From Emticicia agri (GTDB taxonomy: Bacteria > Bacteroidota > Bacteroidia > Cytophagales > Spirosomataceae): DNA of 64,000 nucleotides. Both the position numbers and the translations under genes were made by a program. The stretch lies in NCBI GenBank assembly GCA_945860265.1, contig CAMAQF010000012.1, positions 1 to 64,000 on the forward strand. The letters run 5' to 3'. The notes under the pieces were generated by a model. It saw nothing but the letters and a program-made list of their open reading frames with translations. It ran no database searches and was not told where the DNA came from. Position 1 is the first letter of the stretch; each line of letters opens with the position of its first letter. Of the stretch, positions 11,904 to 30,193 are shown piece after piece.

Positions 11904-13250
11904 TTATTCGTTATCATTTTCTTTATTCTTCGATTTTTTAGCATTTTTTTCGACGTTACTACTATGACGGCCACTTCCATCTGCTTCATCCATAATTCCT
12001 CCCGCTGGATTGAGTTGCTCTAAAACTACGGCCAAGCGTTTTTTAGCTTCGCTTGCTTCTTTGTTTTGAGAAATATTGGCGACTAGATTTTCTTCAAAGG
12101 GAGCTTTAATCATATCAAAAAGCTCGCCTGTTCTGTTTAATTTGTAACGTTGGTCTCTAACGTACCATTGGTTACCCAATTCCATAAAAATCCATTCTCT
12201 CGGATTTCCTTTTTGACCTTTGAGTTGTAGAACAAAACTTCTGCCATCTAAAACCTTATTTTCTGGCAATTTTGCACCTGCGATATTTGCCAAGGTTGGT
12301 AAAATATCAGAACCGTCTATCAAATCATCGGTGGTTTTATTAGGCGAAATCACCCCTGGCCAATTGGCAATCATGGGTACTAAACTGCCTCCTTCTAGCA
12401 TTGAGCCCTTTTTTCCTGAAAGAAGTTTGCCACCAATGGTTGCTTTTTGATATTGTTCGTTGGCAGTACCGTTGTCACCCATGAAAACGATTAGGGTATT
12501 TTCTCGAAGTTTAAGTTCTTCCAAAGTCAATATCAATTTACCTACCAACTTATCCATATAAGCCACATTATCGGCATAAAAATCTTTGCTATCGGGTTTG
12601 CTATCGGGTGTTTCTTGTATCAAATTATGTACATGTGACATGGAATAATGAACATAAAATGGCTGGTTTTTATTTTGTTTAATGAAGTTTACCAATTGAT
12701 TATGCATCAAATCAGGCATATATTCTTTATTACCCAATGTTTTGGTTTCTCCATTAACTAAATAATCTTTTTTGTTTTTTGCCCAATATCCACCACTACC
12801 TTTGAAGGTAATATAATTGTCAAAACCAAAATCTGCGGGTGTCAACCCAAACTGACTCCATTTGCCAATCATGGCACTTTTATAACCTTCCGTTTTTAAG
12901 ACTGTTGGTGTTAATGTTTCATCAGAAGGTTTTATTTTTGCCACATTGTCTTGATTTACCGCACCCGTTCTAAAAGCATAACGGCCGGTCAGAATCAAAG
13001 CCCTCGATGGCCCACATAACGGTGCGGTATAGGCGTGGGTAAATTTCAAACCATTTTTGGCGAGCTTGTCAATATTTGGCGTTTTGTTGTTATCAGAACC
13101 ATAACAACCAACTTCACCAGTACCTAAATCATCGGCAAGGATGAAAATGATATTTGGCTTTTTTGTAGTGCTTGATTTCGACTGCTTGGTTTGTGCATAA
13201 ACATTTAAAGTCAAGAATACCAAGAATAGAATAAAACTGTTTTTTTTCAT
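11904..13250 (-). CDS. S1-type arylsulfatase-like sulfatase
   Basis: The ATG at 13250 (MKKNSFILFLVFLTLNVYAQ) is preferred because the longer start at 13274 overlaps the stop of the isomerase gene. The 448-residue protein has NIIFILADDLGTGEVGCYG (metal DD at 40-41), CGPSRALILTG with Cys79 as the formylglycine site, and VFMGDNGT near residue 260. C-terminal residues (KKNAKKSKNKENDNE) form a charged, low-complexity tail that is unusual compared with the other sulfatases here. The layout is arylsulfatase A/N-acetylgalactosamine-sulfatase-like, distinct from the iduronate-2-sulfatase-like genes at 5245 and 22331. Confidence 0.92.
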   Translation of the reverse strand: MKKNSFILFLVFLTLNVYAQTKQSKSSTTKKPNIIFILADDLGTGEVGCYGSDNNKTPNIDKLAKNGLKFTHAYTAPLCGPSRALILTGRYAFRTGAVNQDNVAKIKPSDETLTPTVLKTEGYKSAMIGKWSQFGLTPADFGFDNYITFKGSGGYWAKNKKDYLVNGETKTLGNKEYMPDLMHNQLVNFIKQNKNQPFYVHYSMSHVHNLIQETPDSKPDSKDFYADNVAYMDKLVGKLILTLEELKLRENTLIVFMGDNGTANEQYQKATIGGKLLSGKKGSMLEGGSLVPMIANWPGVISPNKTTDDLIDGSDILPTLANIAGAKLPENKVLDGRSFVLQLKGQKGNPREWIFMELGNQWYVRDQRYKLNRTGELFDMIKAPFEENLVANISQNKEASEAKKRLAVVLEQLNPAGGIMDEADGSGRHSSNVEKNAKKSKNKENDNE

Positions 13251-13273
13251 TTTTCTATTTAAAATTTCCAGCA

Positions 13274-14194
13274 CTAAGCTTCCTTTAATGCTTGTTGAAC
13301 TTCTTTTAAAAATTTACTTACTTTTTCTTTTGGATCGCCTTTACCAAGTGTCTCAATTGGAAGAGACCCTCTATAACCCGATTCTTTAATAATTTTAAAC
13401 AGCCTTTTTAAATCTGTTTTTACTTCGACTCCATGTACAAAAATATTTTCTTTTACTTGCCAATTTACTGCATATTGCACCGTTTGAGCAATTTGCGTAT
13501 AAGGGTCGCCTTGATGATAACTGCCTACATCCAATATCAAACCGAACCATTCCATATTAACCATTTTTATTATTTTAATGACATCATCGGCAGTTTGTAT
13601 AAAATCATTATGGTTTTGAATAGCAACTATTACCCCATGCTTTTGTCCATATTCTACACATTCACGAATGTCTTTAACCATCCAAGTTGCTATTTGATCC
13701 CAAGTATATTCTTTAGGTCTAATTACACCAGAAAAAACACGAATAACAGGGGCACCTAATTTGGAGGCCACTTCAATCCACTGCTTGATCATTTGGACAT
13801 CTGCTTTACGTTTTTCTGGATCAGGATTGGTATAATCATTTCTTATACCAGTTCCCGTGATTTCTAAACCCAATAAATGAGCTTTTCGCTTTATATGATA
13901 TATATATTCATCAGAAGGGACTTTCGGATAATTTGGAAAAAAGTAACCCGTTAAATCTACCCCATCAAAATTTTGTTCTGCACAAAAATCCAATAAATCG
14001 TCTAAGTTCATAGACTTGTCGACTAAAGGAGTATTAAATGAATAGGCATTTAAGCTAGTTTTTAGCTTACTACTTTTTGACTTATCTTCTAAATTTAATG
14101 CCTTTTCATCCTTGTTTTCTGCTATTACTGAACTCAGAGCAGGTACTATTATAAAGGATTTTACAAAATCTCTTCTTGAGGTTTCGGGTTGCAT
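13274..14194 (-). CDS. Xylose isomerase-like TIM-barrel protein with Tat signal
   Basis: The 306-residue protein begins with a twin-arginine export motif (SRRDFVKS) and a short hydrophobic stretch, suggesting folded export to the periplasm. The rest is an AP-endonuclease-2/sugar phosphate isomerase barrel: LNAYSFNTPL, FDGVDLTGYF, GAPVIRVFSG, VAIQNHNDF, ILDVGSYHQGDPY and GSLPIETLG. In many family members the metal-ligand motif reads ENH; here it is QNH, as I recall in a subset of Bacteroidota proteins. A role in isomerising or epimerising a released sugar in the periplasm is inferred. It lies between two sulfatase genes. Confidence 0.8.
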   Translation of the reverse strand: MQPETSRRDFVKSFIIVPALSSVIAENKDEKALNLEDKSKSSKLKTSLNAYSFNTPLVDKSMNLDDLLDFCAEQNFDGVDLTGYFFPNYPKVPSDEYIYHIKRKAHLLGLEITGTGIRNDYTNPDPEKRKADVQMIKQWIEVASKLGAPVIRVFSGVIRPKEYTWDQIATWMVKDIRECVEYGQKHGVIVAIQNHNDFIQTADDVIKIIKMVNMEWFGLILDVGSYHQGDPYTQIAQTVQYAVNWQVKENIFVHGVEVKTDLKRLFKIIKESGYRGSLPIETLGKGDPKEKVSKFLKEVQQALKEA

Positions 14195-14253: not shown

Positions 14254-15723
14254 TCAATCTTTCCCTTTTCTCCAATGTAAAGTGTCTCCCTTAAATCGAG
14301 TAAGAGCTTTCATTTCAGTTGGAATTCCCAAATCGCCTTGCTGATTCATCCAAGATTTTAATTCAGCAAATAAATTATCTTGGATAACTTTTAACTTAGG
14401 TTCGTTCGCCAAATTATTCAATTCATATTTGTCATTTTTAATGTTATACAATTCTAATTCAGGGCGGTTTCTGTATAAATTGGCGTGGGCGTTTTCTTTC
14501 TTATTGTTTTTAGTTTCTTCTAACCAGCCTTCATACAATTTGTTGCCAAGTCTAGAGGCAGAGCAGTAAAAAGGCTCGTTATAATTGAGATTCCAAATCA
14601 GTTTATAATCATGGTCTTGTACCGACCGAACAGGGTAGTTTTCTGAACCGTTGTTGATACCGCGGGTGGTATGAATGCCATAAACATATTTTCTAATTTC
14701 AGTATTTTTACCTAACAAAGTGGCATAAAAACTTTTACCATCAAGGGACATAGAACCTTCTTTATTTGCTCTTAAGGTAAGTGGGTCTTCACCTGCGGCT
14801 TCGTAAAGCGTAGGTACGACATCAATGTATTGTGAAAGAATGCTTGTGCGAGTTGCTGGTTTTATGGCTTTCGGCCAACGTGCGATAAATGCCGCTTTCA
14901 ATCCCATATTATAGCAAGTCCATTTTCCAAAAGGTAAAGAAGTGCCATGTTCGCTGGCAAACATAAAAATAGTATTGTCTTTTTTGGGTTGATTGTCAAC
15001 AATTTTCATGCAGTGACCTACGAGGCTATCGGCATAAGTAATTTCGGCATAGTATTTTACCAATTCTTTTCTTGTCTCTTTGGTATCTACCATATAAGGA
15101 GCAATTTTAAGTTTTTTAGCGTCATATTGTGCAGGATTCCCACGAGTCCAAGGGCCATGGGGTTGGTTGGATGCTACAACCAATAAATAAGGTTTGGTTT
15201 TATCTTTGTTTATCCATGCTTCGGCATCGGCCAAATTTATGTCTTGCCCTTCGCCGTTGTCACTGTCTCTGCCACCAAGGTATTCGTATGGGAAAGATGA
15301 TAATGGAGCCGTATGCCTTTTGCCAATCAATGCTACTCGATACCCCATTTTTTTGAAGTGGGTAAAAACGCTAATTACGTCCTCATAAACTTTGGCGTGG
15401 TTGGGATAACTGCCATTTTTTACTGGAAAAACCCCTGTGTATAAACTTTGGCGGGTAGGGCCACACATAGCGGTTGCGTTGTTCATATTATCAAAACACA
15501 AACCTTGTTGGGCCAATTTTGCCAAATTGGGCGTTTTCACATCTGGGCTGCCATAAGGTTCGCAATCCACAGAAGTCATATCGTCGGCGATAAAGAAAAG
15601 GATATCAGGCTTTTTCTGTAAATCATCGGTTGATTTTTTTGAAAATTGAATAAAAGATGCCAACAATGTAATAATTGCTATGGCACTCAGCGATAAGGAT
15701 AATTTTTTAAACATTTTATTCAT
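14254..15723 (-). CDS. S1-type sulfatase (N-sulfoglucosamine sulfohydrolase-like layout)
   Basis: This 489-residue protein has a hydrophobic N-terminal segment (SLSAIAIITLLASFI) that could be a signal peptide or anchor. The core starts PDILFFIADDMT (DD 47-48). The formylglycine site is Cys87 in CGPTRQSLYTG, followed by PVKNGSYPNHAKVY. That ending, and ASEHGTSLPFGKWTCYNMG near residue 265, resemble N-sulfoglucosamine sulfohydrolase-type enzymes. If correct, part of the substrate could carry sulfated amino sugars, but this subfamily also contains O-sulfatases. It is 5 bases downstream of the large PL6 gene, so translation may be coupled. Confidence 0.88.
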   Translation of the reverse strand: MNKMFKKLSLSLSAIAIITLLASFIQFSKKSTDDLQKKPDILFFIADDMTSVDCEPYGSPDVKTPNLAKLAQQGLCFDNMNNATAMCGPTRQSLYTGVFPVKNGSYPNHAKVYEDVISVFTHFKKMGYRVALIGKRHTAPLSSFPYEYLGGRDSDNGEGQDINLADAEAWINKDKTKPYLLVVASNQPHGPWTRGNPAQYDAKKLKIAPYMVDTKETRKELVKYYAEITYADSLVGHCMKIVDNQPKKDNTIFMFASEHGTSLPFGKWTCYNMGLKAAFIARWPKAIKPATRTSILSQYIDVVPTLYEAAGEDPLTLRANKEGSMSLDGKSFYATLLGKNTEIRKYVYGIHTTRGINNGSENYPVRSVQDHDYKLIWNLNYNEPFYCSASRLGNKLYEGWLEETKNNKKENAHANLYRNRPELELYNIKNDKYELNNLANEPKLKVIQDNLFAELKSWMNQQGDLGIPTEMKALTRFKGDTLHWRKGKD

Positions 15724-15727
15724 GAAT

Positions 15728-17989
15728 TTAATTTGAATTGTTTTCTAACTTTACATATTTGTCAACAAGTACCTCACCCGAATTTGAGACTTTATTATTA
15801 CTAAAAATATGAGTTGCTTTTACGGTATCCTCAAAAAAGAATAGTTTTTTATTGGTATTACATTCCTTGAAAATATTGTTGTTGGTAAAACTTCGATTAA
15901 TTCCGCTGATGAAGAAAAGTGGTTCTTCGTTTGCTGTTTCACAGGCTGAAATTTTATTTTCTGTCAATATCAACCAAGGCCCCATCGTACTTTCATCTTT
16001 CCCGCTTCTGATGATGCTCAGGATTTTCCCTTTATTGTTGGTAAAAACATTTTTATTTATTTTCAATTTTTCAACATTATAATAGCCTTTTTTATCAGTT
16101 TCGGAATTTAAGCTGAATAGAGTTCCAATAATGTAACTAAACTGGCAGTTCGCAACCACCACGCTATCTAAAACACTTGATTTGGATGCTTTAAAAAAGT
16201 CGCCATTCAGGTGCTCAACGGTACTATTCCGAAAAGTAAAACTACTATGATTTGGATTGGCGGTTGTATCTGAAATAATGAAACTTTTAGGACTTAGATT
16301 TGAAAAGTCAATCTTCAAATCATTAATTAACAAGGATTTACCCGCCAAAATTTGAAAACAATAAGTTGATTTTAAATCGTTTAAATTGAATTTTGTCGGC
16401 GTTTTCAAGGAGGAACTAATAATTACATCACCAGAAATAATGATTGGTTTGGTAAAATTATATTCATTAGAAGTTAAGTTAATAAACAATTTTGAGTCTT
16501 TATTTTTTGCCAACTGTTCTACTAACTCAGCAACATTTTTGCAATTTGCCTTTACTATTCTTTGTTTATTTTTGATTGGTTTATACCATTTTGCACCACA
16601 AAGATTGCTTGCATTCGACTCAACAGCTTTTAGTCTATTCAAGTCTGCGTAACCATTTTTGTTAGAAAAACCATAGGATAATCTCGAAACACCTACTTTT
16701 TGAATAGAATCATTGAGCGTAATGCCATTTTTGAAATCCCCCTTCATTTCAAATGGATTCCTTGGATTTGAGAATAGTGTAGTTTTGGAAAATCCTTCTG
16801 AAAGTGGCTGTTTTATGGTATTACTCACTAAATTACTTGCAAAAGTTATTCCCTTGATATCATCAAATTGATAGTATAAAAGCGTGTCTTTTGTACTGTA
16901 AAAAATATTATTGACAAACTGCACTTTGCTTGGTGTTTCACTTCGCTCGGCATCGCTACCTTCGCAAAAACTTATCGCTGAACAATCGTTGAAAGTATTA
17001 TTTGCAATCACCGCATTTGAAACGGAAACGTATCTGATGGCGGGCGAGTTGGGTACACCATTCATTAATGTTAAAGGTGAGCGAAAACCTACGCCACGGC
17101 ATTTATAAAAATAATTATTGACCACCATTTGGCCTTTATTTATCAAACGAACCCCACCAGTACCTTCTTTATCATTGCCTAAAAACACATTATTTTCGAC
17201 TGTATTGTAATTTCCATGACGAAAAACCACACTTCCTTGACATTCTTTGAAAAGATTATTTCGAACCACGTTTTGACAAGATTTGATAGAGATAATTTCA
17301 GCCTCTCCATCACAATGCTCAAAGAAATTATCGGTAATTTGGGTATTTGAGTTGAATTCACAGGTTTCAGAAACACCTATTCGGATGATTTCACCCGCAT
17401 TAGAAGCCAATGGAATACGTATCCCAAAATAATTATGGTCAATTTGGTGAAAGTTGTCTTGGTTTATTTTACCCTCTAACATAACTGCTACCAGCACACC
17501 AATATTCTTTTTATTAGAAAAACTACAATGGTCAATACGGTTGTTTTTACCATAAAAAGCTACCCAATAATTTTCTTTTAGCCTATTTGGATTATTAAAA
17601 TCATCAATCACGGTATTGGTAACTCTACAGTGATTGGCAACTTGTTTTTCGTCTATTCTGAAACTAATCACATCTTCATTGGCAAAACCATTTTTAAATA
17701 ATAGACCATCTACCACGATAAAATTACCTCCAAAATTTAATTTAGATTTGCCAGTAATCATTACTTTCCCAGCTGTTTCAGCTTTGAAAATTATTGGCAT
17801 TTTCTCGGTTCCGTTGCACGTAAGGCTAATCACGACATCTTTCCATTCGCCATTCTTTAAAATTATTATATCGCCAGGTTGGGCAAGATTGTTTGCTTTT
17901 TGCAATTCAATCAGATTCTTTACCTCGATGTTTTTCGACAAAGAGTCAAAAGAAATGAATATCAAAAGGCTAAAAATCAATAATTTCAT
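15728..17989 (-). CDS. Two-domain PL6 lyase (chondroitinase B/alginate lyase family)
   Basis: The 753-residue secreted protein (signal peptide ending SLS) has an N-terminal parallel beta-helix of about 420 residues and a second, more diverged helix-like domain to the end. In the first domain the catalytic pair of the family is visible: Lys236 in SIKSCQNVV and Arg257 in VVFRHGN, 21 residues apart, the same spacing as Lys250/Arg271 of chondroitinase B. GEIIRIG (200-205) fits the calcium-site region. The two-domain length is that of larger PL6 enzymes. It would cleave uronate linkages by beta-elimination. The paralogue at 20880 has only one domain. Confidence 0.9.
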   Translation of the reverse strand: MKLLIFSLLIFISFDSLSKNIEVKNLIELQKANNLAQPGDIIILKNGEWKDVVISLTCNGTEKMPIIFKAETAGKVMITGKSKLNFGGNFIVVDGLLFKNGFANEDVISFRIDEKQVANHCRVTNTVIDDFNNPNRLKENYWVAFYGKNNRIDHCSFSNKKNIGVLVAVMLEGKINQDNFHQIDHNYFGIRIPLASNAGEIIRIGVSETCEFNSNTQITDNFFEHCDGEAEIISIKSCQNVVRNNLFKECQGSVVFRHGNYNTVENNVFLGNDKEGTGGVRLINKGQMVVNNYFYKCRGVGFRSPLTLMNGVPNSPAIRYVSVSNAVIANNTFNDCSAISFCEGSDAERSETPSKVQFVNNIFYSTKDTLLYYQFDDIKGITFASNLVSNTIKQPLSEGFSKTTLFSNPRNPFEMKGDFKNGITLNDSIQKVGVSRLSYGFSNKNGYADLNRLKAVESNASNLCGAKWYKPIKNKQRIVKANCKNVAELVEQLAKNKDSKLFINLTSNEYNFTKPIIISGDVIISSSLKTPTKFNLNDLKSTYCFQILAGKSLLINDLKIDFSNLSPKSFIISDTTANPNHSSFTFRNSTVEHLNGDFFKASKSSVLDSVVVANCQFSYIIGTLFSLNSETDKKGYYNVEKLKINKNVFTNNKGKILSIIRSGKDESTMGPWLILTENKISACETANEEPLFFISGINRSFTNNNIFKECNTNKKLFFFEDTVKATHIFSNNKVSNSGEVLVDKYVKLENNSN

Positions 17990-18023: not shown

Positions 18024-19739
18024 TTATTTGGCTGGTTTCCAAGGCCATGGTTTTGCTTTGTTTCTGAGAGCTTCGGTTTCCCATTTTTGAGCCATTCCCT
18101 TGGCTATTTCTGGGTACGTCGTAACCAAATTGTTTCGCTCGGTTGGGTCCTTTTTCAAATCATATAGTTCCCATTTATTTTCATCAGCTTCGCCGAAGGT
18201 TTTTTGTTTTCCTGTTTTTGAAACCAATTTCCAATCGCCTATTCTGATAGCACGATTGGCGGAATGTTCCCAAAAGATATAATCTCGGGCTACGGGTTTA
18301 TTAGTAAATGCTGGTACAAGACTTTTTCCTTCTAATGCTTGAATTTCATTCCCATTAAATTGTTTTGGATAGGTTAAACCTGTAATTGCCAAACACGTAG
18401 CCATGATGTCAATCAAATGAGAAGGTTGCGTTCTTAATTGTCCTTTTGCGGCAATACCTTTGGGCCAGTGGACAATCAAAGGCGAGGCAATTCCGCCTTC
18501 GTGGGTATATTGCTTATAACTTCTGAAAGGCGTATTTGATACATTTGCCCATTCTTCCCCGTAAGTTGACCACGAGTTAGCGTCGCCAGGCATTACCCCT
18601 CTGCCACTTTGTACGAATCTTCCGTCACGGGTATATTCAGGTTTTTTATCTAAAAAAATGGCTTCTTGTGGCGTTGGCTTTAATAATTTTTGTGCCTCAG
18701 TAAGCGGCTTTGCTGGTTTATCCGTCTCTACTGGTTCGGCACAACCGCCGTTGTCGTGCATGTAAAAGATAATTGTGTTCTCTAATTCGCCCTTCTTTTC
18801 GAGTGCCGTAATTATTTTGCCAATACCTTCGTCCATAATGTCCACCATGGCGGCATACACTTCCATTCGTTTTACCTGCCAATCTTTTAGTGGTTCATCT
18901 TTCCAAGCAGGTACGTCGACACCACGGTCGGTTAGGACACATTTATCGCTGATAATTCCTAATTTTTTGAGTTTATTGAATCTTTGCTCTCGCATCACAT
19001 CCCAACCTTTATCATAGAAACCTTTGTATTTTTTTACATCGTTTTCTGGGGCATGAAGTGGCCAATGAGCGGCCGTATAAGCGACATAAAAGAAAAAAGG
19101 TTGCTGTTTTGGATGTTCCTGAATGAATTTTACGGTGGTATCGCTGATAGCTCGGGTATAATAAAAGTCTTTGTGAGGAGCAACGAACTTGTTATTGCTA
19201 ATCAAAGTGCCAGGGTCATAATAACTGCCTGAGCCGTTGAGCGTACCGAAATAACGCTGAAAACCACGTTGCAAAGGCCAATTACTTTTATCACCGTTCG
19301 GTTTCATGTCTTTGGCTACGTGCCATTTACCGGTCATGTAGGTTGCATAGCCTGCTTTTTTAAAAACCTCAGCCATCGTAACGGCATTTTTACTCAAATC
19401 GTCCTTATAGCCTTCTTCGATATAGTTTTCCGTAGAAAGATGACCCATGCCTGCTTGATGCGGATATAAACCCGTGAGCAAAGCCGCCCGCGTGGGACTG
19501 CAACGAGCAGTATTATAAAAGCTCGTAAAACGTATGCCATTTTCTGCCAATCGGTCAATATTGGGTGTTTTGATTTCTGAGCCAAAACAACCAATGTCAG
19601 AGTAGCCCATGTCGTCTGTAAGAATTACTATGACATTTGGTTTCTTGGTTTGAGCATTTATGGCTGAATATCCAAACAAAAGGCATGTTAGGACGAAGAA
19701 AAAGGGAAATTTCTGAGGGCTTATTTTGAAGTTATTCAC
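18024..19739 (-). CDS. S1-type arylsulfatase
   Basis: This is the longest sulfatase here, with 571 residues and a signal peptide ending SAINAQ. It has NVIVILTDDMGYSDIGCFG (DD 42-43), CSPTRAALLTGLYPHQAGMGH with Cys80 as the formylglycine precursor, MTGKWHV (~130) and MHDNGGCAE near residue 325. These are classical arylsulfatase A-type motifs. The C-terminal RIGDWKLV segment is also typical. It lies immediately downstream of the sulfatase-maturing enzyme gene (16 bases), which suggests coordinated production. The substrate position is unknown. Confidence 0.94.
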   Translation of the reverse strand: MNNFKISPQKFPFFFVLTCLLFGYSAINAQTKKPNVIVILTDDMGYSDIGCFGSEIKTPNIDRLAENGIRFTSFYNTARCSPTRAALLTGLYPHQAGMGHLSTENYIEEGYKDDLSKNAVTMAEVFKKAGYATYMTGKWHVAKDMKPNGDKSNWPLQRGFQRYFGTLNGSGSYYDPGTLISNNKFVAPHKDFYYTRAISDTTVKFIQEHPKQQPFFFYVAYTAAHWPLHAPENDVKKYKGFYDKGWDVMREQRFNKLKKLGIISDKCVLTDRGVDVPAWKDEPLKDWQVKRMEVYAAMVDIMDEGIGKIITALEKKGELENTIIFYMHDNGGCAEPVETDKPAKPLTEAQKLLKPTPQEAIFLDKKPEYTRDGRFVQSGRGVMPGDANSWSTYGEEWANVSNTPFRSYKQYTHEGGIASPLIVHWPKGIAAKGQLRTQPSHLIDIMATCLAITGLTYPKQFNGNEIQALEGKSLVPAFTNKPVARDYIFWEHSANRAIRIGDWKLVSKTGKQKTFGEADENKWELYDLKKDPTERNNLVTTYPEIAKGMAQKWETEALRNKAKPWPWKPAK

Positions 19740-19755
19740 GGAAATGAAATTAAAA

Positions 19756-20874
19756 TTATTTATCTGCTACACATCTAAAACCCAAATGTTCCATGCCCGA
19801 ATCTGGCGAACTTTTCATTCGGGCTGCAACTCTATAACCGCTACAATAGGATTCATTACAAAGAAATGAGCCGCCACGCATGGTTCTTTTGGGTACCGTT
19901 GGTTCGTCGGGGTCGTAGCTACTTTTAGGGCCTTTAGGGTTATCAATCACCTTGATATTTGCTATCTGTTCATAATAATCGTGGTGATATAAATCGGCAC
20001 ACCATTCCCACACATTACCTGCCATATCATACAAACCATAGCCATTTGCCGCAAAAGATTTTATGGGTGAAGCACCATAAAAACCATCTTTCGTATCATT
20101 TTTATATGGAAAACTACCTTCCCAATAATTACATTTATTTTTGCCTTGTTCTACGTTTTCATTTCCCCAAGTATAAACATTGTTTTTGAGATTTCCTCTT
20201 GCGGCAAATTCCCATTCGGCTTCAGTAGGTAATCGTTTGCCAGCCCATTGGCAATAAGCCATGGCATCGTCCCAACTAATATGAACAACTGGAAATTTAT
20301 CTCTGCCCTTTATGCTGCTATTGGGGCCTTTTGGGTGTTTCCAGTCTGCCCCGTGAGTCCATTGCCACCATTGGCTGTAATCTTGTAGATTTACGGCACT
20401 TTGAGTAGGCACAAAAACCAATGATGCCGCTTTTAGCATTTCAGGTTTTGGCTTTGGGGTATTAGGTGGCAAAGTGGCTTTGATTTCTTCCCAGTTTACA
20501 TCTTTTTCGGCAGTGGTTATATAGCCTGTCGCTTTTACAAATGCAGCAAATTGTTCATTGCTTACTTCGGTAACATCCATAAAGAAGCCATTGAGTTTTA
20601 CTTGGTGTTTAGGCAATTCATCCCTTCTACCTTGCTCATTATCAGCCCCCATTTCAAAGGTTCCGCCTTCTATCCAAACCATACCGTCTCGATTTGTGGC
20701 AACATTGGTTGTTGTAGAATCTGTGCCTTTATTTTGGGCTGCAAATCGACTTGGTATTTTGGAAGTACAACAAGTCATGGCTTCCGCTTTCTTCTTTTCA
20801 TTATATTTATAAAAAGAAAAAGCCGCTATACTTGCTATTGCTATTGTTAATAAAACCCATTTTAAGTTTTTCAT
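19756..20874 (-). CDS. Formylglycine-generating enzyme family protein, membrane-anchored
   Basis: The ATG at 20874 (MKNLKWVLLTIAIASIAAFSF) gives an N-terminal transmembrane anchor; the longer start at 20895 overlaps the previous gene. The SUMF1 domain covers roughly residues 60-372: GMVWIEGGTFEMGADNEQGR, VTEVSNEQFAAFV, KRLPTEAEWEFAARG, YDMAGNVWEWCAD and the C-terminal RGGSFLCNESYCSGYR. The two Cys at about 339 and 344 match the catalytic copper-binding pair of genuine FGE, and SSPDSGMEHLGFRC also matches, so this is likely a true maturase rather than a SUMF1-fold relative. It would convert the active-site Cys of sulfatases to formylglycine. Its anchor implies action at the periplasmic face on the six sulfatases of this locus. 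Confidence 0.9.
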   Translation of the reverse strand: MKNLKWVLLTIAIASIAAFSFYKYNEKKKAEAMTCCTSKIPSRFAAQNKGTDSTTTNVATNRDGMVWIEGGTFEMGADNEQGRRDELPKHQVKLNGFFMDVTEVSNEQFAAFVKATGYITTAEKDVNWEEIKATLPPNTPKPKPEMLKAASLVFVPTQSAVNLQDYSQWWQWTHGADWKHPKGPNSSIKGRDKFPVVHISWDDAMAYCQWAGKRLPTEAEWEFAARGNLKNNVYTWGNENVEQGKNKCNYWEGSFPYKNDTKDGFYGASPIKSFAANGYGLYDMAGNVWEWCADLYHHDYYEQIANIKVIDNPKGPKSSYDPDEPTVPKRTMRGGSFLCNESYCSGYRVAARMKSSPDSGMEHLGFRCVADK

Positions 20875-20879
20875 TTTCT

Positions 20880-22334
20880 TTAATTTTTTATCCAAATAAC
20901 GCCAACATCTTTTTTGAATACAATTTTTGAAACATCAAATACCATTATTTCTTTTTCTGAAAGTTTGATTTGATGAACGAGAAGGCGTTGGTTGATAGCG
21001 TCGATTATAGATTTATCAGTTAATTGTCGTCCAAAGTAAAAACCATCTTTTAAAACCAAATCTTTTATTTTTATTTGTAAAAAGCCTTCTTCTGATGTCG
21101 CTCCATTGGTATAAAAGTTATCAGTTAAAGTATAAGTTGATGTTGGGTCTTCAATTACAATAGGTTCAATATTTTTTCCGACGGTATTTACAACAGTATT
21201 TCCCACCAACAAAACATTTTTAGGAGCAACCAAAGATTTGCCATTATTTTTATTTCCAACGCCAATTTTTATGGCTGCACCAACCGAATTAACGATTGTA
21301 TTATAGGCCAAAATGGCGTTATCGGCTGGATAATACTCATTTAAAGCAGCGTTTTCTAAACCAGACATCACTGTTATTGGTGATTTTAGGTCTTTGTCAC
21401 TACCTTCCAGATTCTCTACATAATTATTAAAAAAAGTATTGTTGGGGTTGATGACTCTCAATCCTGCACTTTCTTTTCTTCCCGCCTTACCGTTGATATA
21501 ATTACCATAAACAAAACACTTTTGTCCGTGTCTGATTACCATACCGCCATCATTTCCGATGAAAGTATTGAAGCGATAAATATTATCCCAGCTTTTATTA
21601 CTCACTACTTCCGTTTCGATGCGTTCGTCTTCAAAATAATTATATTCAATGATATTAAAACCGTGCGAAAAAGAAGTTGTACTTGTTCCCACTCTGATTT
21701 GTTCACCCCCATTTTCTGAAAAAGTACGATAAGCAAAATAATTATGATCAATATGATGATGTGATGAAGGGGCAACATCTGAGCCTGGAATATAGCCTTT
21801 TTCTTGTTTGTATTTTACAAGCAGCGTTGGCCCTTTATTGGTTTTTCCAGAAAAATAGCAATGCTGAACTTCATTATATGTCCCTACTAGATTGACATAA
21901 TAATTGGTTTTTCCCGTTGTTTCAGCATGAGTATAGTTTATGATGGCACAATTACTGATTTTTGAATGATGGGCTTCTTTACTGCCAATAGCAAAACTAA
22001 TGACGTGTTCTTTGTCTTCTAGTGTGCATTTTCCTTCAAACAAAAAGCCTTCGACTTGTAAATAATTACCGCTTAAAAGTAGCTGAGAATTACCTGAAAA
22101 TGAAACTTTTCCTGCCGTTTGGGCTTTCAATACGATTGGTTTTTCAGCTGTACCATTTCTTTTAAAATTGATTTTAATATCCACATAATTACCCTCTTTC
22201 CAAACAATGACATCACCCGCTTTTGAGTTTGACAAAGCAGTTTCAAATTCGTTTAAATTGTTTACTATGAATTCGGTAGCGTTTGCTTGAAAACAAAGAA
22301 AAAATAAAATGAATATGAAAAGTTTTGTAGTCAT
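20880..22334 (-). CDS. Single-domain PL6 lyase
   Basis: The 484-residue protein has a signal peptide (MTTKLFIFILFFLCFQANA). The parallel beta-helix carries the PL6 motifs GEQIRVGTST (~210), Lys247 in SNKSWDNIYRFN and Arg268 in GGMVIRHGQ. The Lys-Arg spacing of 21 is the same as in chondroitinase B and in the paralogue at 15728. Its start codon overlaps the stop of the sulfatase at 22331 by four bases, so the two are translationally coupled. It probably cleaves the same acidic polymer, or shorter fragments of it, with different action from the two-domain enzyme. Confidence 0.91.
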   Translation of the reverse strand: MTTKLFIFILFFLCFQANATEFIVNNLNEFETALSNSKAGDVIVWKEGNYVDIKINFKRNGTAEKPIVLKAQTAGKVSFSGNSQLLLSGNYLQVEGFLFEGKCTLEDKEHVISFAIGSKEAHHSKISNCAIINYTHAETTGKTNYYVNLVGTYNEVQHCYFSGKTNKGPTLLVKYKQEKGYIPGSDVAPSSHHHIDHNYFAYRTFSENGGEQIRVGTSTTSFSHGFNIIEYNYFEDERIETEVVSNKSWDNIYRFNTFIGNDGGMVIRHGQKCFVYGNYINGKAGRKESAGLRVINPNNTFFNNYVENLEGSDKDLKSPITVMSGLENAALNEYYPADNAILAYNTIVNSVGAAIKIGVGNKNNGKSLVAPKNVLLVGNTVVNTVGKNIEPIVIEDPTSTYTLTDNFYTNGATSEEGFLQIKIKDLVLKDGFYFGRQLTDKSIIDAINQRLLVHQIKLSEKEIMVFDVSKIVFKKDVGVIWIKN

Positions 22335-23920
22335 TTTTGATTCATTTTGAAGAAAGCCAACATTTTAGCATTCATATCTTTTGCAGTTGTTGCATATTTT
22401 TTGTCTTTCACTACGTTCACCTTCTCTAATGGGTCTTTTTCGTAATCATACAATTCGCTGGCATAAACTTTTTTAGCTGAATAGGGTTCGTTGCTAGTAA
22501 AGTCACTCATCCAAATCACATACCGATATTTTTCAGTTCGCATGGCATAGCCCATCAATTTATTGTTGGCATAACCCAAACTTTTCTGTTCTTCTTTTTT
22601 CAATTTTCTAGGATATTGACTTATCGAAAAGTCTTTTACCTTCGCTTTATTATTGACCATAATAGGCTTTAAACTTTTTCCATCTAAAAAAGCAGGAATG
22701 GACGTACCTGCCAAATCACAAATCGTCGGAAAAATGTCTAAATGTTCGGTCTGCGAACTTGTTTTTCCTGATTTTATTCCCGGTGCGGCAATAATGAGTG
22801 GAGCTCTAGTTGCTTGTTCAAAATTGGTATGTTTTTCCCATAAATCATGGTCGCCTAAATGCCAACCGTGGTCGCCCCAAAGTACAATCACTGTATTGTT
22901 TAAGGTCCCTAATGAATCAAGCGTATTTAAGAGAATTCCTACTTGGGCATCCATGTAAGAAACCGCAGCATAGTATCCATGAATTAATTCTCGTTGCTTT
23001 TCTTCTTTAATATTGACATGAAGACCGCCTTCTTCATTGTAAGTAGCAAAGGCGGGAATATCTGTATAATTTCTTAATTCTCCCGAACGGTGATAAGCCA
23101 TTTCAACGCCATTTTTTGAATGCTCTTGAAAAGTCGCCAAAGGCATATCAGCATCTTTGTACAAATCCCAATATTTTTTGGGTGCTACAAAAGGTAAATG
23201 TGGCTTATGAAACCCAACCGCCATGAAGTAAGGCTGAGTGTTTTTTGAAAACTTTATCAATTGTTGTTTTGCCAATAGAGCATCTACGCCATCGGTATAG
23301 GCATGATCTGGTACGTCCAAATTTTCAAACGAAGGGCCTTTTCTACTAGTTGGATTTTCATCGTCACCGTCATCTACTTTTGGTTTTTGAACTTTTTTAT
23401 CGAAGAAAGCCTTCATTTCAGCCTTTTGGTATTGACCGTTGGCTGGTTTACCCAACCCATTGGCATAGTCATTATCCTGTTCCAAAAGATAGGGAACACT
23501 CCAAGAAACTGGATCTACTTTTTTAATGGCACTTGAAGGGTGGAAAATTTTTCCAACTCCGGAGGTAGCATAACCTTGCGTAATGAGATATTGAGGAAGT
23601 GTAATAATATCGGGGTTTATATCCCGCATTTGGGTTTTTAGGTCCCAAATCTGCGTATAATCGGGTCTTTTACCGGTCATTAAGCTTGCACGGGTAGGTC
23701 CACAAACCGCTTGTTGGCAATAATTATTCATAAAAACCGTCCCCATTTTTGCCAAACGGTCAATATTAGGCGTCTTTATTTGCGTATTTCCATAACAACT
23801 CAATACGGGTTTTAAATCATCCACTGCAATAAACAGGACGTTAGGTTTGCTCTTTTGTTGGGCAAAAATGCTTGTTCCTAATAAAATTAGGAACAAGCTA
23901 AATAATGATACTTTTTTCAT
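22331..23920 (-). CDS. S1-type sulfatase (iduronate-2-sulfatase-like), first enzyme gene after SusCD
   Basis: The 529-residue protein has a signal peptide ending SIFAQ. It has NVLFIAVDDLKPVLSCYG, CGPTRASLMTGKRPD with Cys73 as the formylglycine precursor, GFHKPHLPFV and WGDHGWHLGDHDLW. It is closely related to the sulfatase at 5245, to the point that the segment around MGTVFMNNYCQQAVC is identical, so the two likely arose by duplication inside the locus. The gene follows SusD by 9 bases and overlaps the PL6 gene by four. It is probably periplasmic. Confidence 0.93.
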   Translation of the reverse strand: MKKVSLFSLFLILLGTSIFAQQKSKPNVLFIAVDDLKPVLSCYGNTQIKTPNIDRLAKMGTVFMNNYCQQAVCGPTRASLMTGKRPDYTQIWDLKTQMRDINPDIITLPQYLITQGYATSGVGKIFHPSSAIKKVDPVSWSVPYLLEQDNDYANGLGKPANGQYQKAEMKAFFDKKVQKPKVDDGDDENPTSRKGPSFENLDVPDHAYTDGVDALLAKQQLIKFSKNTQPYFMAVGFHKPHLPFVAPKKYWDLYKDADMPLATFQEHSKNGVEMAYHRSGELRNYTDIPAFATYNEEGGLHVNIKEEKQRELIHGYYAAVSYMDAQVGILLNTLDSLGTLNNTVIVLWGDHGWHLGDHDLWEKHTNFEQATRAPLIIAAPGIKSGKTSSQTEHLDIFPTICDLAGTSIPAFLDGKSLKPIMVNNKAKVKDFSISQYPRKLKKEEQKSLGYANNKLMGYAMRTEKYRYVIWMSDFTSNEPYSAKKVYASELYDYEKDPLEKVNVVKDKKYATTAKDMNAKMLAFFKMNQK

Positions 23921-23929
23921 TGTAATTGA

Positions 23930-25477
23930 TTAGTAACCAGCGTTTTGAGAGATTACAATTTGCGTATTATTATCAATTTCTCGTTGTGGAATTGGCAACA
24001 ATAAACGATTAGGATTGGCATTAGTTTGCAAATCTATCACAGATAACCTCGGGGCCGAATAGGTACCATAATGAGTTGGATACATTAGTGCAAAGTGGTC
24101 TTGCAATGTTTTTTCTGCCTTGATAGTTGAAAATGTTGTATTGAATCGCAACAAATCGAACAGTCGTTGGTTTTCAAAAGCAAATTCGAGCCTTCTTTCG
24201 TCGGCTAATGCCTTTTCAAATAATGCTACCGAATTCACTTGCGTTGCCGTTAAATCTGGCAATGCAGCACGTTTACGAACTTGGTTAATGAGTGTTAAAC
24301 TTGCAGCGGTATTTCCTTGTGCTTCAGCCAACATTAATAATACATCAGCATACCGAATTACTGGCCAATCACTTTCAGAATCTTTGGCAACAACCATCAC
24401 AGAAATATGTTTTTTGGGATACAGTTTTGCGGCAGATCCTGTTCCATATACGCCAATATTTACCGCTTTTCTTACGTCAGTGGTTGTATATAGGTTATTA
24501 ACCTCGGAAGTTGGGAAATTATAACCACTGCCGTCCCCGTTAGCTACCGCTGCACCACTATTTAAAGGAGCAAAAAGGTTTGAAAACTGTGAACCTAATC
24601 CCAATCCACCCGCTTTGTAACGAACAGCGAAAAGAATTTCAGAACTCATTTCTGTAGCAGTAGAGAAGATATTTGCATATGAAGCAAGTAAACTATAACC
24701 GCTATTAGTAATAATATCTTGTAATAAGGTAGCCGCTTCGGTTTTTCTATTGAGTGTGAGATAAACCTTCGCCAACAATGCCTTAGCAGACCAAGCATTT
24801 GCCCGACCTAAATCAGCGGCAGGAATTGAAGAAAATTTTACCTGACTTCCATTTGCCGAAGCAAATTGTAAATCAGCCACAATAAGTTTGTAAATCTCCT
24901 CTTTTGAAACCCGATTGATATCTTTTGCTTCCTGAGGTGTTACTGGTTCATGTGCTAAGAACACACCACCATACAACCTCACCAAATTGAAATAATGGTT
25001 AGCTCTAATAAAAGACGCCTCGGCAGCGAGTTTTTTACGATTAGGCTCATCAATTGCTATTTTGATTTCACCGAAAGAAAGTGTTCCTGAACTTGGTGAA
25101 TAATTTGAACCCAATGCGTCTAAAACGAGGTTAGTATTTCGAATATTATAGTAAACTGAAAGCCAGTAATTATAATTGCCGGCATGTGAGGTGCTTGGAT
25201 AAAGCATATCCAACTCGGTTAAATCACGGTTTACCTGTGAGGTACTGCCAGTGGCTCCCATCACACTATTATCACTTCTAAGTTCGGTTAAAGTCCATTC
25301 CTCAACAAGTGGTTTTTGCATTCCACCGTAACAACCTGTTAATGCACTACTCACCTCTGCTTGATTTGAGTAAAAAGTACTGGCGTTTAGATTTGATTGC
25401 GGATACAGGTCTATGATTTGGTTACAACTGCTTAAACCTATCAGTGAGAAAAGAATAATATATTTGAATGTTTTCAT
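23930..25477 (-). CDS. SusD/RagB family surface glycan-binding lipoprotein
   Basis: The 515-residue lipoprotein has a lipobox (FSLIGLSSCNQ). The opening LYPQSNLNASTFYSN, the TPR-like region with AEASFIRANHYFNLVRLYGG near residue 150, and the C-terminal RRLEFAFENQRLFDLLRF and LLPIPQREIDNNTQI motifs are the standard SusD signature. It binds oligosaccharides at the cell surface and forms a lid on the SusC channel. It is encoded directly after SusC (11 bases), as expected. Confidence 0.96.
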   Translation of the reverse strand: MKTFKYIILFSLIGLSSCNQIIDLYPQSNLNASTFYSNQAEVSSALTGCYGGMQKPLVEEWTLTELRSDNSVMGATGSTSQVNRDLTELDMLYPSTSHAGNYNYWLSVYYNIRNTNLVLDALGSNYSPSSGTLSFGEIKIAIDEPNRKKLAAEASFIRANHYFNLVRLYGGVFLAHEPVTPQEAKDINRVSKEEIYKLIVADLQFASANGSQVKFSSIPAADLGRANAWSAKALLAKVYLTLNRKTEAATLLQDIITNSGYSLLASYANIFSTATEMSSEILFAVRYKAGGLGLGSQFSNLFAPLNSGAAVANGDGSGYNFPTSEVNNLYTTTDVRKAVNIGVYGTGSAAKLYPKKHISVMVVAKDSESDWPVIRYADVLLMLAEAQGNTAASLTLINQVRKRAALPDLTATQVNSVALFEKALADERRLEFAFENQRLFDLLRFNTTFSTIKAEKTLQDHFALMYPTHYGTYSAPRLSVIDLQTNANPNRLLLPIPQREIDNNTQIVISQNAGY

Positions 25478-25488
25478 TGTGATTATGA

Positions 25489-28400
25489 TTAAAAATTAAT
25501 GTCAATGCCAAAAATAAAAGTTTTAGGAATAGGAAAACTTCCTCTTTGATAACCATCTATCAGCGAAGAGCGATACGATCCGTTCGTGAAGCGTCCTTCT
25601 GGATTTAAGCCTCTGTAGCCCTTAGCCGTTTGAAAAAACAAGTTTTGTCCAGAAAAGTATATTCTTGCTGTTTTTATATTTGCTAGACTTGATATTTTCG
25701 ATGGTAGTTTATAACCTGCATTTATCTCTCTAAGAGTAAAATATGAAGCATCTTCAACCACATAATCGGTTAAAAGCCAATTAAATCCGTTTGTAGTGTA
25801 TGGCGTTTTACCATCACCAGGGAACAATGGACTCAGCCAGCGATTAGAATTATAGGCTCTGTTTCTACTTCTTGTCTCAGTATAATTCGGGTCTCCATTA
25901 ACAATTGAACCCCCTTGTACACCTTGCAATGAAAAGCTAATATCAAATGACTTAAAAATAAAGTTGTTTGTTATGCCCCAAGTAAAATCAGGATATGGAT
26001 TCCCAATGACAGTTCTATCTTTATTGTCAATGATTTTATCGCCATTTATATCCACCAGTTTTAGTCCTCCTGGAACAAAATAGTTTGTTAAGCTACTCTT
26101 TACACCATCGGCCTTGGCTTTATCTACATCGGCTTGTGAAAGCCATACGCCATCTGTTTTATATCCTAAGAATTGAATTAATGGGTCTCCCACTTTATTC
26201 TGATACACTTCCGTTCGTTCTCCTTGATTTAGTAAATAGGCTTCGTTTCCTAATTCTAAAATTTTGTTTTTGGTATGAGAAAAATTAGCTGAAGTTGTCC
26301 ATTTAAAGTTTTTGGTAGAAATATTCCTCGTTGTTAATTCAAATTCTATTCCTTTGTTTTGTAAACTTCCAATGTTATTCCAGAAAAGAGGAACGCCAAT
26401 AAATGCCATGGATGATTGTTGCAGTAACAACTTATCTGTTTTTGACTGGTAAACATCTACAGACAATTCTATTTTATTTTTAAGAATTCCCAAATCTATT
26501 CCTAAGTTAGTTTGAAAGGTACTTTCCCAAGTAATATTCTTATTGGCTACAATTGTTGGTGAGGTTGATTGCCCTGCAACTAAGTTTCCGTTACCAGTAC
26601 CCAAGGGATAATTAGCTGAGTACATTAAATCAAGAAAACCAAAATCAAGAATTCTGTTATTTCCAGATATTCCATAGCTTGCTCTTACCTTTAATTTATC
26701 TAACCATGTAATGTTTTTCATAAACTTTTCCTCAGTTGCTACCCAACCAACTGAAATCGATGGGAATGTTCCCCATTTATTACCCGGTCCAAAATATGAG
26801 CTACCATCTGCACGAAAGCTTGCCGAAAGTAAATACTTATCATTAAACTCGTAATTTACTCTGCCCAAATATGAAAGAAGGCCAATTTGATTGATTGAAC
26901 TGGTTGTTCCTGCTTTGTCTATTTGAGAAGCATTGTTGATGGTTCTAATATTATCACTTGGATAATCCAATCCTGTAACCGTGCTTCTGCTCACTTTTGT
27001 AGTTTGTGCGGTGTAACCAATTAATGCATTGATTGAGTGCTTTCCGATACTTTTTACGTAATTCAAGGTATTTTCTGAAAGGAGGTCAACATAGGAGCTA
27101 TTCGTATATACGCCTTTACTTACAATACCATCACCTGTGGCATTTCTATTCTCCCAGTCCAATCCTGAAGTGTTGTTAATGTAAACACTTGCCATAGTTT
27201 TGAAATCTAAACCTTTCATTAGATTAAAAGTAAGATTTCCCGAACTTTGTAATCGATATTCATTTGTATTTACATCTTGATTGATCACGGCCGACTTTGG
27301 ATTGTTCTGTGAAGAACCAGTTTGTGGACCCGTTGGGCCTGTTGAAGTCCAGATTGAACCATCGGGCATAGTGCCAGAATAAACTTGATTACTAAAATGT
27401 CTCGGATGGGCAAAGTCGCCCTCTTTGATATTTACCCATTGCGGGTTTTGTCTTACCCAAGCAGCCGTTAGCTGATTGTGGTAAACTGGTAATGAGCTCG
27501 GGAACCTTGTAAAATTGGTAAAATTTTCAGAAGGTGTTTCTCTCGTTGAGTAGGAGGGATTTAAGTTTAGCGACAATTTTACTCTTTTGGTTAAATCGAC
27601 ATCTACTTTTGCTCGAATATTAAGTTTTTCGTAATTACTCTTGTACATCATACCCTCATCTGACTGGTATCCTCCCGAAATAAAATATCGAACATCCTTT
27701 TTCCCTCCAGAAGCACTCAATAAGATATTTTGGAATTGCCCCGTTCTGAGTGACTCGTTTTGGTAATCAGCACCTTTTCCACCCAACAATGTTTGTTCGA
27801 TTATATAAGCTGACCTTTCATTATCACCAGCAGTATTTGCAATTGTTCGAATTGGTGCACTTGGGTCAGTTGCCTTCAGTGCAGCCTCCTGAAACAACAA
27901 CTCAACGTACTCAGTCGCTGACATGGTATTATATCTTTTATAGGGAGATTTTTGGCCAATCGAATATTTGAAAGAATAAGTTGGTTTATCAGATTTTCCG
28001 CTTTTGGTAGTTATTAAAATTACTCCACTTGCTCCACGCGAGCCGTAAATGGCAGCTGAAGCAGCGTCTTTTAAAACTTCCACAGATTCAACATCAGCCA
28101 TGTTAACAAAAGCAAGTCCATCTGGCACAGGCTGTCCATCAACAACAACTAATGGTGTTGCACCTGCATTAACTGAACTGATACCTCTAATTGTAATTTT
28201 TGGTGCTGCACCAGCTTCTGAGGATATATTTTGAATCTGAACTCCAGCGATTTTTCCTTGTAAAGCTTGGTCAAGTCTGGTTACAGGTGCCTCATCTAAT
28301 CGTTCGTTTTTGTATTTTGATACAGCTCCTGTTAAACTAGTTTTCTTTTGAGTACCATACCCAACAACAATAACTTCGTCCAATGCTTTATTGTCCGAAC

Positions 28401-29115
28401 TAAGTGAGACATCTATCTTGTTTTTGTTTCCAACAAGCACTTCTTGGCTTTCATAACCTACGAAGCTAAACACTAAAGTTGTTTTTTCATCAATCGACTT
28501 TATTGAATACTCTCCTGCCCCGTCTGTGGTAGTTCCACGAGTTGTACCTTTAATCGTAATACTAACACCTGGTAATCCATCTCCACTTAAAGCATCCGTT
28601 ACCTTTCCCTTTACATTTTTTTCAATGTTTGAATATTCAGTTTTATTACCAATATTTGACATATTGATATTTGCCACGAGCGATTTTTCGGTAGATTCGA
28701 TTGGTGTAGTACTTTCCACATTATTTTCTTGAAATCGCTCATTCGATAATGCACCTACTTTGATGCTCTTATCTGCAAAAACTGTATAAGAAGTACGGTT
28801 TATTTTTTTGTATTTTAAACCTACAGGCCCTAATACATTTTCAAGATTTTGCTCAAGACTTAAATCCGTATTGACCAATCTACTGTTGATTGTAATTCCT
28901 TGTACGGTTTTAAGCTCGAATAAAATGTCTGCTCGATAATGATTTTTAAGTTCATTTAATACATCGTTCAATAAACGAAGTGCTTCGTACTTTGATCTCT
29001 CCAATGGCCTAGTTTGCTTTGTCATAGCAAACATCTGCGAATGGCTCGGTAAGCCCGTAATTAATAGAATAACCATAAGCCTCCACGAAGAAGCTTTTAG
29101 TAAACGTTTTATCAT
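25489..29115 (-). CDS. SusC/RagA TonB-dependent transporter with N-terminal STN signalling domain
   Basis: The 1208-residue protein has an N-terminal hydrophobic signal stretch, an STN (secretin/TonB N-terminal) domain at about residues 50-115, then a carboxypeptidase-regulatory-like domain (GKVTDALSGDGLPGVSITIKG, ~170-235), a plug with VVVGYGTQKKTSLTGAVS (~250) and an outer-membrane beta-barrel to the end. It imports oligosaccharides using TonB energy. The STN domain is the part that contacts FecR-type anti-sigma factors, and a FecI/FecR pair lies immediately upstream, so this is a transporter that also senses its substrate. Confidence 0.96.
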   Translation of the reverse strand: MIKRLLKASSWRLMVILLITGLPSHSQMFAMTKQTRPLERSKYEALRLLNDVLNELKNHYRADILFELKTVQGITINSRLVNTDLSLEQNLENVLGPVGLKYKKINRTSYTVFADKSIKVGALSNERFQENNVESTTPIESTEKSLVANINMSNIGNKTEYSNIEKNVKGKVTDALSGDGLPGVSITIKGTTRGTTTDGAGEYSIKSIDEKTTLVFSFVGYESQEVLVGNKNKIDVSLSSDNKALDEVIVVGYGTQKKTSLTGAVSKYKNERLDEAPVTRLDQALQGKIAGVQIQNISSEAGAAPKITIRGISSVNAGATPLVVVDGQPVPDGLAFVNMADVESVEVLKDAASAAIYGSRGASGVILITTKSGKSDKPTYSFKYSIGQKSPYKRYNTMSATEYVELLFQEAALKATDPSAPIRTIANTAGDNERSAYIIEQTLLGGKGADYQNESLRTGQFQNILLSASGGKKDVRYFISGGYQSDEGMMYKSNYEKLNIRAKVDVDLTKRVKLSLNLNPSYSTRETPSENFTNFTRFPSSLPVYHNQLTAAWVRQNPQWVNIKEGDFAHPRHFSNQVYSGTMPDGSIWTSTGPTGPQTGSSQNNPKSAVINQDVNTNEYRLQSSGNLTFNLMKGLDFKTMASVYINNTSGLDWENRNATGDGIVSKGVYTNSSYVDLLSENTLNYVKSIGKHSINALIGYTAQTTKVSRSTVTGLDYPSDNIRTINNASQIDKAGTTSSINQIGLLSYLGRVNYEFNDKYLLSASFRADGSSYFGPGNKWGTFPSISVGWVATEEKFMKNITWLDKLKVRASYGISGNNRILDFGFLDLMYSANYPLGTGNGNLVAGQSTSPTIVANKNITWESTFQTNLGIDLGILKNKIELSVDVYQSKTDKLLLQQSSMAFIGVPLFWNNIGSLQNKGIEFELTTRNISTKNFKWTTSANFSHTKNKILELGNEAYLLNQGERTEVYQNKVGDPLIQFLGYKTDGVWLSQADVDKAKADGVKSSLTNYFVPGGLKLVDINGDKIIDNKDRTVIGNPYPDFTWGITNNFIFKSFDISFSLQGVQGGSIVNGDPNYTETRSRNRAYNSNRWLSPLFPGDGKTPYTTNGFNWLLTDYVVEDASYFTLREINAGYKLPSKISSLANIKTARIYFSGQNLFFQTAKGYRGLNPEGRFTNGSYRSSLIDGYQRGSFPIPKTFIFGIDINF

Positions 29116-30141: not shown

Positions 30142-30193
30142 ATTTTTTTCTTTTTTAGCAAGATGTTTTTTATTTAAAAACCCTTAGTTTTTA

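Follow-up and report, generated by a model that had tools for sequence, protein, structure and literature searches.

A probably exported formylglycine-generating enzyme in a sulfatase-rich locus of Emticicia agri, and a bacterial cysteine tail resembling the enzyme's own target

Results

A sulfatase-rich polysaccharide utilization locus

The window, a stretch of 64,000 nucleotides of Emticicia agri DNA, contains a locus with six PF00884 sulfatases, two PF14592 chondroitinase B-family proteins, two PF05426 proteins, a GH88-like protein and a pair of SusD-like and SusC-like genes (23930..29115, -), the marker of a polysaccharide utilization locus (PUL). Within it, a gene for a formylglycine-generating enzyme (FGE; 19756..20874, -) encodes 372 aa between an ATG at 20874 and a stop at 19756, the start given in the list of open reading frames (ORFs) being a TTG 21 bases further upstream of this ATG. 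Directly downstream, beginning 16 bases after the FGE stop, lies a sulfatase with the motif CSPTR and a hydrophobic N-terminus ending in INAQ (18024..19739, -). Upstream, the gene is adjoined by a PF14592 protein (20880..22334, -), the ORF of which ends 5 bases before the FGE ATG, so that the two probably share one transcript; the second gene upstream is another sulfatase (22331..23920, -; CGPTR, signal ending in IFAQ). The proximity to sulfatases that a preliminary description had pointed out is thus borne out by these two neighbours and by the six sulfatases of the locus, the others carrying CGPTR (14254..15723, -), CGPSR (11904..13274, -), CNPSR (6837..8276, -) and CAPTR (5245..6813, -). 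The second PF14592 protein lies at 15728..17989 (-), and the two PF05426 genes, of the alginate-lyase family, at 4040-5209 and 8280-9506. An ECF sigma factor gene and a FecR-type anti-sigma gene, probably the regulator of the locus, stand beside the SusC gene (29146-30883). As for the polysaccharide target, our guess would be a sulfated uronate-containing polymer.

The protein is an FGE with an intact catalytic pair

The FGE/SUMF1 catalytic domain, as delimited by the PF03781 match and Foldseek, covers residues 63-369 (19768..20688, -). The profile PF03781 (FGE-sulfatase) matches with E 7e-84 over positions 3-254 of 255, i.e. the whole core, and the nearest solved structures are FGEs (6s07, 4e-82; 5nxl from T. 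curvata, 2e-81; human FGE, 1e-74), with the catalytic FGE of S. coelicolor also among the closest solved proteins. Foldseek with the AlphaFold2 model (mean pLDDT 89.6) returned FGE chains, human and bacterial, at all ranks from 1 to 26 (TMt 0.82-0.91). The stretch RGGSFLCNESYC fits the pattern GGS[FYH]xCxxxxC and supplies the catalytic pair Cys339-x4-Cys344 (GGSFLCNESYC; 19843..19860, -), the expected Cu(I) ligands, neither of which varies in any of the 27 aligned sequences (the window sequence counted). The domain and the pair can be read directly from the sequence, and the enzyme belongs to a known family; a PUL-encoded FGE with the catalytic Cys pair, as originally described, is what the profile match, the invariant cysteines and the sulfatase-rich SusC/SusD locus support. 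Although GldK was the top NCBIfam match, its score of 150.4 bits lies far below the cut-off of 350, and the GldJ equivalog cut-off is likewise missed (71.9 against 458.2 bits); given these scores and the intact Cys pair, we dropped a GldK/GldJ-type scaffold as the identity of this protein.

Residues 2-33 form a hydrophobic helix (20776..20871, -), likely a signal anchor, which is evident both from hydropathy and from the AlphaFold2 model (block pLDDT 84, 91 and 80), confirming the hydrophobic segment first proposed for this N-terminus. A pattern scan of the N-terminus found neither a lipobox nor an AxA-Q cleavage site. By the helix, K2 and K5 stand before, and K23 and K27-K29 together with E26 and E31 after, a distribution of charges that leaves the orientation unsettled. 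The topology would follow that of homologues, and near relatives with a signal peptide or a lipobox-like N-terminus include L066 (66% identity), L037 (65%), L040 (62%), and L038 and L039 (59%).

The sole Cys-pair SUMF1 protein found in its genome

Three PF03781 matches are present in the genome of the window (G000; 4.43 Mb, about 90% complete), and by sequence the FGE is the only SUMF1 protein among them with the Cys pair: strict and relaxed patterns alike found none in the other two, one of which (L002) has a lipobox-like N-terminus and is the likelier GldK/GldJ-type candidate. PF00884 gave 27 matches over the cut-off. All 26 canonical sulfatases found are Cys-type, with CxPxR or CxAxR (two CxAxR), and all 26 have a hydrophobic N-terminal segment, the N-termini of L015 and L025, mis-cut in the main listing, being taken from another reading. 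L028, a PF00884 match with a 612-residue frame and a hydrophobic N-terminal half, has no C/SxPxR-type site anywhere and was set aside as LtaS-like. The other maturase sought, anSME (TIGR03942), had no match in this about 90% complete genome at E 1e-3. A sole Cys-pair FGE, exported-looking sulfatases and no anSME found imply that the window FGE serves exported sulfatases, unless the assembly lacks a gene, for instance one for an anSME or a cytosolic FGE, as this completeness allows; the sulfatases it serves are probably those of the whole cell, beyond its own locus.

In three genomes of the same genus (L063 in G008, L064 in G001, L065 in G003), the best match is a lipoprotein-like SUMF1 protein with the motif GGSFLCEPSWC, 47-48% identical to the window FGE over residues 164-371 only, and the best matches in the other seven same-genus genomes are similar in score and extent. 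This suggests a gain of the window FGE, or its loss in the other genomes of the genus.

Export-type N-termini are common among related FGEs

With the window protein as query, matches were found for 50 of 78 relatives at E 1e-40, for 47 of 395 members of the phylum at E 1e-70 and, at E 1e-50, for 20 of 246 Actinomycetota, 48 of 398 Pseudomonadota, 32 of 149 Planctomycetota, 17 of 145 Verrucomicrobiota and 74 of 149 Paenibacillales, the group names at E 1e-50 following the record titles of the centre loci. At most the 30 best matches per search to the exported query were taken as loci, and a further search kept the best 80 of 572 relatives; because only the best matches per search were sampled, frequencies in this survey are not prevalence. 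G[GA]S[FYW]xCx4C was present in 220 of 284 best ORFs (one per locus), the 64 dropped comprising 37 with GGSHxC-type pairs and 27 with neither. After removal of 8 rows that were duplicates or had no core start, 212 were kept, and 211 were classified, one more lacking a usable tail. A hydropathy rule, which also picks the start codon and chose some starts wrongly (L068, L080, L110, L157), called 140 of them exported and 71 signal-less.

An export-type hydrophobic N-terminus was found in all 59 distinct Bacteroidota Cys-pair FGEs from whole-genome samples, a set that includes the window FGE as well as L063-L065, which belong to another SUMF1 subfamily with the Cys pair. By pattern, 35 of these N-termini have a lipobox, one has AxAQ and 23 are otherwise hydrophobic, several of the latter being lipoprotein-like too. 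The window FGE, with its plain hydrophobic helix and no lipobox, is in the minority, together with FGEs like that of Flavobacterium defluvii (L083, L168, L170, L171, L173, L174). L068 and L080, named Bacteroidota rows that were called signal-less, have frames continuing upstream into lipobox-like stretches. Exported FGEs also occur among the rows from Planctomycetota, Verrucomicrobiota and Pseudomonadota.

These counts bear on the proposal that the window FGE matures sulfatases outside the cytoplasm, an arrangement said in the preliminary description to be unusual for a bacterial aerobic FGE. Maturation outside the cytoplasm is favoured by the export-type N-terminus, by the exported appearance of 26 of 26 sulfatases and by no other maturase having been found in the genome; the supposed rarity does not survive, with 59 of 59 Bacteroidota FGEs from whole-genome samples being export-type and more occurring in three other phyla, and we therefore abandoned the view of FGE export as exceptional.

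Predicted locations of FGE and sulfatase tend to match

Considering sulfatase ORFs with their N-terminus inside the DNA fetched around Cys-pair FGEs, a hydrophobic signal is present in 21 of 28 beside exported FGEs versus 5 of 30 beside signal-less ones (Fisher p 1.4e-5), in a statistic that relies on the hydropathy rule, counts related loci as independent and contains 12 exceptions in 58. Some of the exceptions look like artefacts of the start codon or of a 60-residue cut (L068, L110, L077, L081), and the counts include them. Both proteins are signal-less in the Peribacillus, Paenibacillus, Streptomyces, Arthrobacter and Microtetraspora loci, and both are exported in Spirosoma, Verrucomicrobiales (L084), Variovorax and most cases in Flavobacteriaceae. 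In an alphaproteobacterial metagenome-assembled genome (MAG; L111), the FGE is signal-less and has two sulfatases beside it, one of which passes the signal rule and one of which narrowly fails it.

Sulfatases by the exported FGEs L077 (Cupriavidus), L081 (Pandoraea), L215, L087, L094 and L047 have CTAGR in place of CxPxR, in several cases after a long Pro/Ala-rich linker.

A cysteine tail between anchor and core

The N-terminal extension of the window FGE holds a Cys pair, C35-C36, in the linker after the anchor (C35-C36-T-S-K-I-P-S-R43; 20746..20772, -), where extra residues stand between Cys and Pro, so that the form is not a strict CxPxR; the preliminary description makes no mention of this motif. 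The tail of L066, from a Flavobacteriaceae MAG (66% identity), reads CCTAKIPSRY; others have CHSNIPDRF, CHKGIPDRF, CMKVPSRF or, in Verrucomicrobiota, CCGVLPSRF, and signal-less FGEs have CCSASR, CCAPQR, CCTPAR, CCALSR and similar forms near their start. Scanned over the last 60 residues before the core, a pattern chosen after seeing examples (CC.{2,6}[RK] or C.{2,5}P.[RK]) matches 59 of 71 FGEs called signal-less and 32 of 140 called exported, for which shuffles of the same tails expect 7.4 and 6.5, the exported matches including weak ones that probably caught a lipobox Cys (L067, L149, L158, L163, L255), two rows that look signal-less (L285, L319) and two doubtful ones (L058, L251). Since the motif is commoner in signal-less than in exported FGEs, it is not an adaptation to export alone.

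Because the pattern is post hoc and some exported matches are weak, the positions that it does not force give a cleaner test. In the 50 rows with CC.{3}R, out of 248 distinct Cys-pair rows, C+1 is S, T, A or G in 48 (background 0.36), C+2 is P or A in 42 (background 0.20) and C+3 is S, T or A in 30 (background 0.28); with one row per 66% cluster, the counts at C+1, C+2 and C+3 are 17, 14 and 11 of 19 (p 2e-6, 2e-7 and 5e-3). The commonest form is CC-[STAG]-[PA]-x-R, and the sulfatase signature is C-[STACG]-P-[STA]-R (accessible part of PMC7279497). As the unforced positions share the preferences of the signature, the tail resembles the FGE's own target.

The motif is not universal, an idea that we dropped: among exported FGEs it is absent from 37 of 59 in Bacteroidota, 24 of 26 in Planctomycetota and 9 of 9 in Pseudomonadota, and 33 of 37 GGSHxC-type rows have no CC before the core. 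In the AlphaFold2 models, the window tail (residues 34-42 and 44-55) and a Paenibacillus tail (1-22; a poor model, mean 68.8) have pLDDT below 50, which gives no support for a tail docked in the active site, and the notion of seeing it docked there was dropped, the models leaving it disordered.

Two Verrucomicrobiota tails (L286, L287) contain further cysteines, e.g. CCTPGEKRCSC and CCTPGKKRCGC, and are reminiscent of metal-binding peptides. CC tails of divergent spacing (CCESNIPAR, CCAPAQAGR, CCAPPDAMMLR, CCPVAPASLR) are also present in a small number of exported FGEs from Bacteroidota and Planctomycetota/Phycisphaerae (L151, L157, L240, L086).

A quick tree of 125 cores, in which 58 of 122 inner branches are open and two long branches meet (L063, L123), assigns human and T. 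curvata FGE to a 30-row clade, mostly signal-less and CC-tailed (SH-aLRT 91), and the window FGE to the other one, which has 93 rows and is largely exported (SH-aLRT 96). A mostly GGSHxC, signal-less group of 19, with no tail motif labels, is nested in the exported clade (SH-aLRT 97). For the motif labels of this tree the core was taken to start at a slightly different point than for the motif count, and a few labels differ (L201).

Discussion

We consider it likely that the product of the window gene is a true aerobic FGE of the copper type, which is exported and stays membrane-bound, its catalytic domain lying outside the cytoplasm. With human FGE/SUMF1 (1y1e, 2aii) it has in common the catalytic domain, the Cys pair and, by its putative topology, an extracytoplasmic compartment; in contrast, the human enzyme is soluble in the ER, the window FGE is membrane-anchored in a bacterium, and human FGE groups with the mostly signal-less, CC-tailed bacterial clade, apart from the clade of the window FGE. 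A further likeness is an N-terminal extension with a Cys pair, in human FGE C50 and C52 (PMC7279497, in part). The S. coelicolor and T. curvata FGEs (2q17, 5nxl and others) share the fold and the Cys pair and, to our knowledge, have neither a signal nor a CC tail. They are also alike in the expected linear Cu(I) site (excerpt of PMC12123546), and differ in that prokaryotic FGE is described as cytosolic (excerpt of PMC4505483). GldK/PorK and GldJ, SUMF1-fold proteins of gliding and the T9SS that are exported lipoproteins by family name, share the Pfam domain, with the window FGE far under their score cut-offs. The same product, FGly, is made by anSME, a radical SAM enzyme and the one without a match in this genome at E 1e-3.

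Maturation before export is the usual view for bacterial sulfatases. It could be reconciled with the hydrophobic helix if the helix anchored an FGE whose catalytic domain stays in the cytoplasm, near the Sec channel, and the four lysines after the helix would fit such an orientation, as would the statement, in the accessible text of PMC4505483, that prokaryotic FGE resides in the cytosol. We nevertheless think this unlikely, since the lipobox pattern in 35 of the 59 Bacteroidota rows would put the C-terminal part outside, and the locations of FGE and sulfatase go together across loci. Another reading, that of a non-catalytic SUMF1-fold scaffold, similar to GldK/GldJ or pFGE and with a structural role in the locus, would be in keeping with the absence of the Cys pair from the genome's two further PF03781 proteins and with GldK being the top NCBIfam match. 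This reading is highly improbable, considering the GldK score (150 bits against a cut-off of 350), the Cys pair, the catalytic FGEs that are the best solved matches, and the 26 Cys-type sulfatases for which no other maturase was found.

The tail is a separate matter. It is quite conceivable, though less likely than not, that it is a disordered spacer whose CC/PxR motif is an ancestral residue or a composition bias without function: its pLDDT is below 50 in both models, 37 of 59 Bacteroidota FGEs do without the motif, and we know of no such motif in the S. coelicolor FGE. That enzyme is active in vitro, and human FGE without its extension was as active in vitro as with it, against an earlier report cited in the same paper (PMC4505483, in part). 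Against a functionless spacer stand the 59 of 71 and 32 of 140 tails with the motif where shuffles expect 7.4 and 6.5, and the unforced positions, which fit the sulfatase signature in 48 of 50 ([STAG]) and 42 of 50 ([PA]) rows, or in 17 and 14 of 19 at below 66% identity.

Returning to the exported FGE, its orientation, catalysis and timing may be pictured as follows. Exported and membrane-held, with its catalytic domain outside the cytoplasm, the enzyme would oxidize the Cys of CxPxR/CxAxR in Sec-exported sulfatases as they reach the same compartment, presumably before they fold, as with human FGE in the ER. Cu(I) is held between the two active-site cysteines of FGE, the substrate Cys becoming the third thiolate, and closure of the cycle needs a two-electron reductant, the physiological one being unidentified (accessible parts of PMC12123546 and PMC4505483). 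The Cys tail after the anchor might help the FGE to receive electrons or Cu(I) at its active site: where the compartment is oxidizing, a dithiol tethered to the enzyme and accompanied by residues like those of the target might extend into the groove and deliver one or the other. More tentatively still, and as a possibility that we ourselves regard with some doubt, the flexible CC-x-[PA]-x-R arm carried by FGEs of numerous bacteria may mimic the CxPxR target, dock in the substrate groove and pass Cu(I) or two electrons to the Cys pair, thus acting as the missing reductant relay or copper loader; the human extension (Cys50/Cys52) would then have inherited a bacterial device, of which the window enzyme is the exported version. 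As AlphaFold2 leaves the tail unplaced and many exported FGEs do without the motif, we hold the conclusion on export firmly and the tail mechanism loosely.

The homology of the window C35-C36 with the human extension rests on the human letters around Cys50/Cys52, which we take to be C50-G-C52-G-T-P-Q-R. On this basis, and given the position of human FGE in the tree, the human extension probably descends from the bacterial CC tail. The extension is said to occur only in higher eukaryotes, and replacement of C50 and C52 by Ala abolished both sulfatase activation and the interaction with ERp44 (excerpts of PMC7279497). Neither an exported bacterial FGE nor the CC tail is described in the open-access texts that our searches brought up, a body of work that leaves most subscription papers outside. 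A Bacteroidota FGE has been used before: the enzyme of F. agariphila was co-expressed with sulfatases in E. coli (PMC8511951, in part).

The exported FGEs point to a maturation of sulfatases that, in many aerobic Bacteroidota, follows export and does not precede it, which would bear on how the sulfatases of this phylum are expressed and studied. The bacterial dithiol tail, in turn, is a likely counterpart of the human FGE extension, the cysteines of which are reported to be necessary in cells (PMC7279497, in part), even though the extension was dispensable in vitro in one study, contrary to an earlier report cited there (PMC4505483, in part). With a bacterial counterpart of the human Cys extension at hand, this discrepancy between cells and in vitro assays becomes addressable in simple bacteria.
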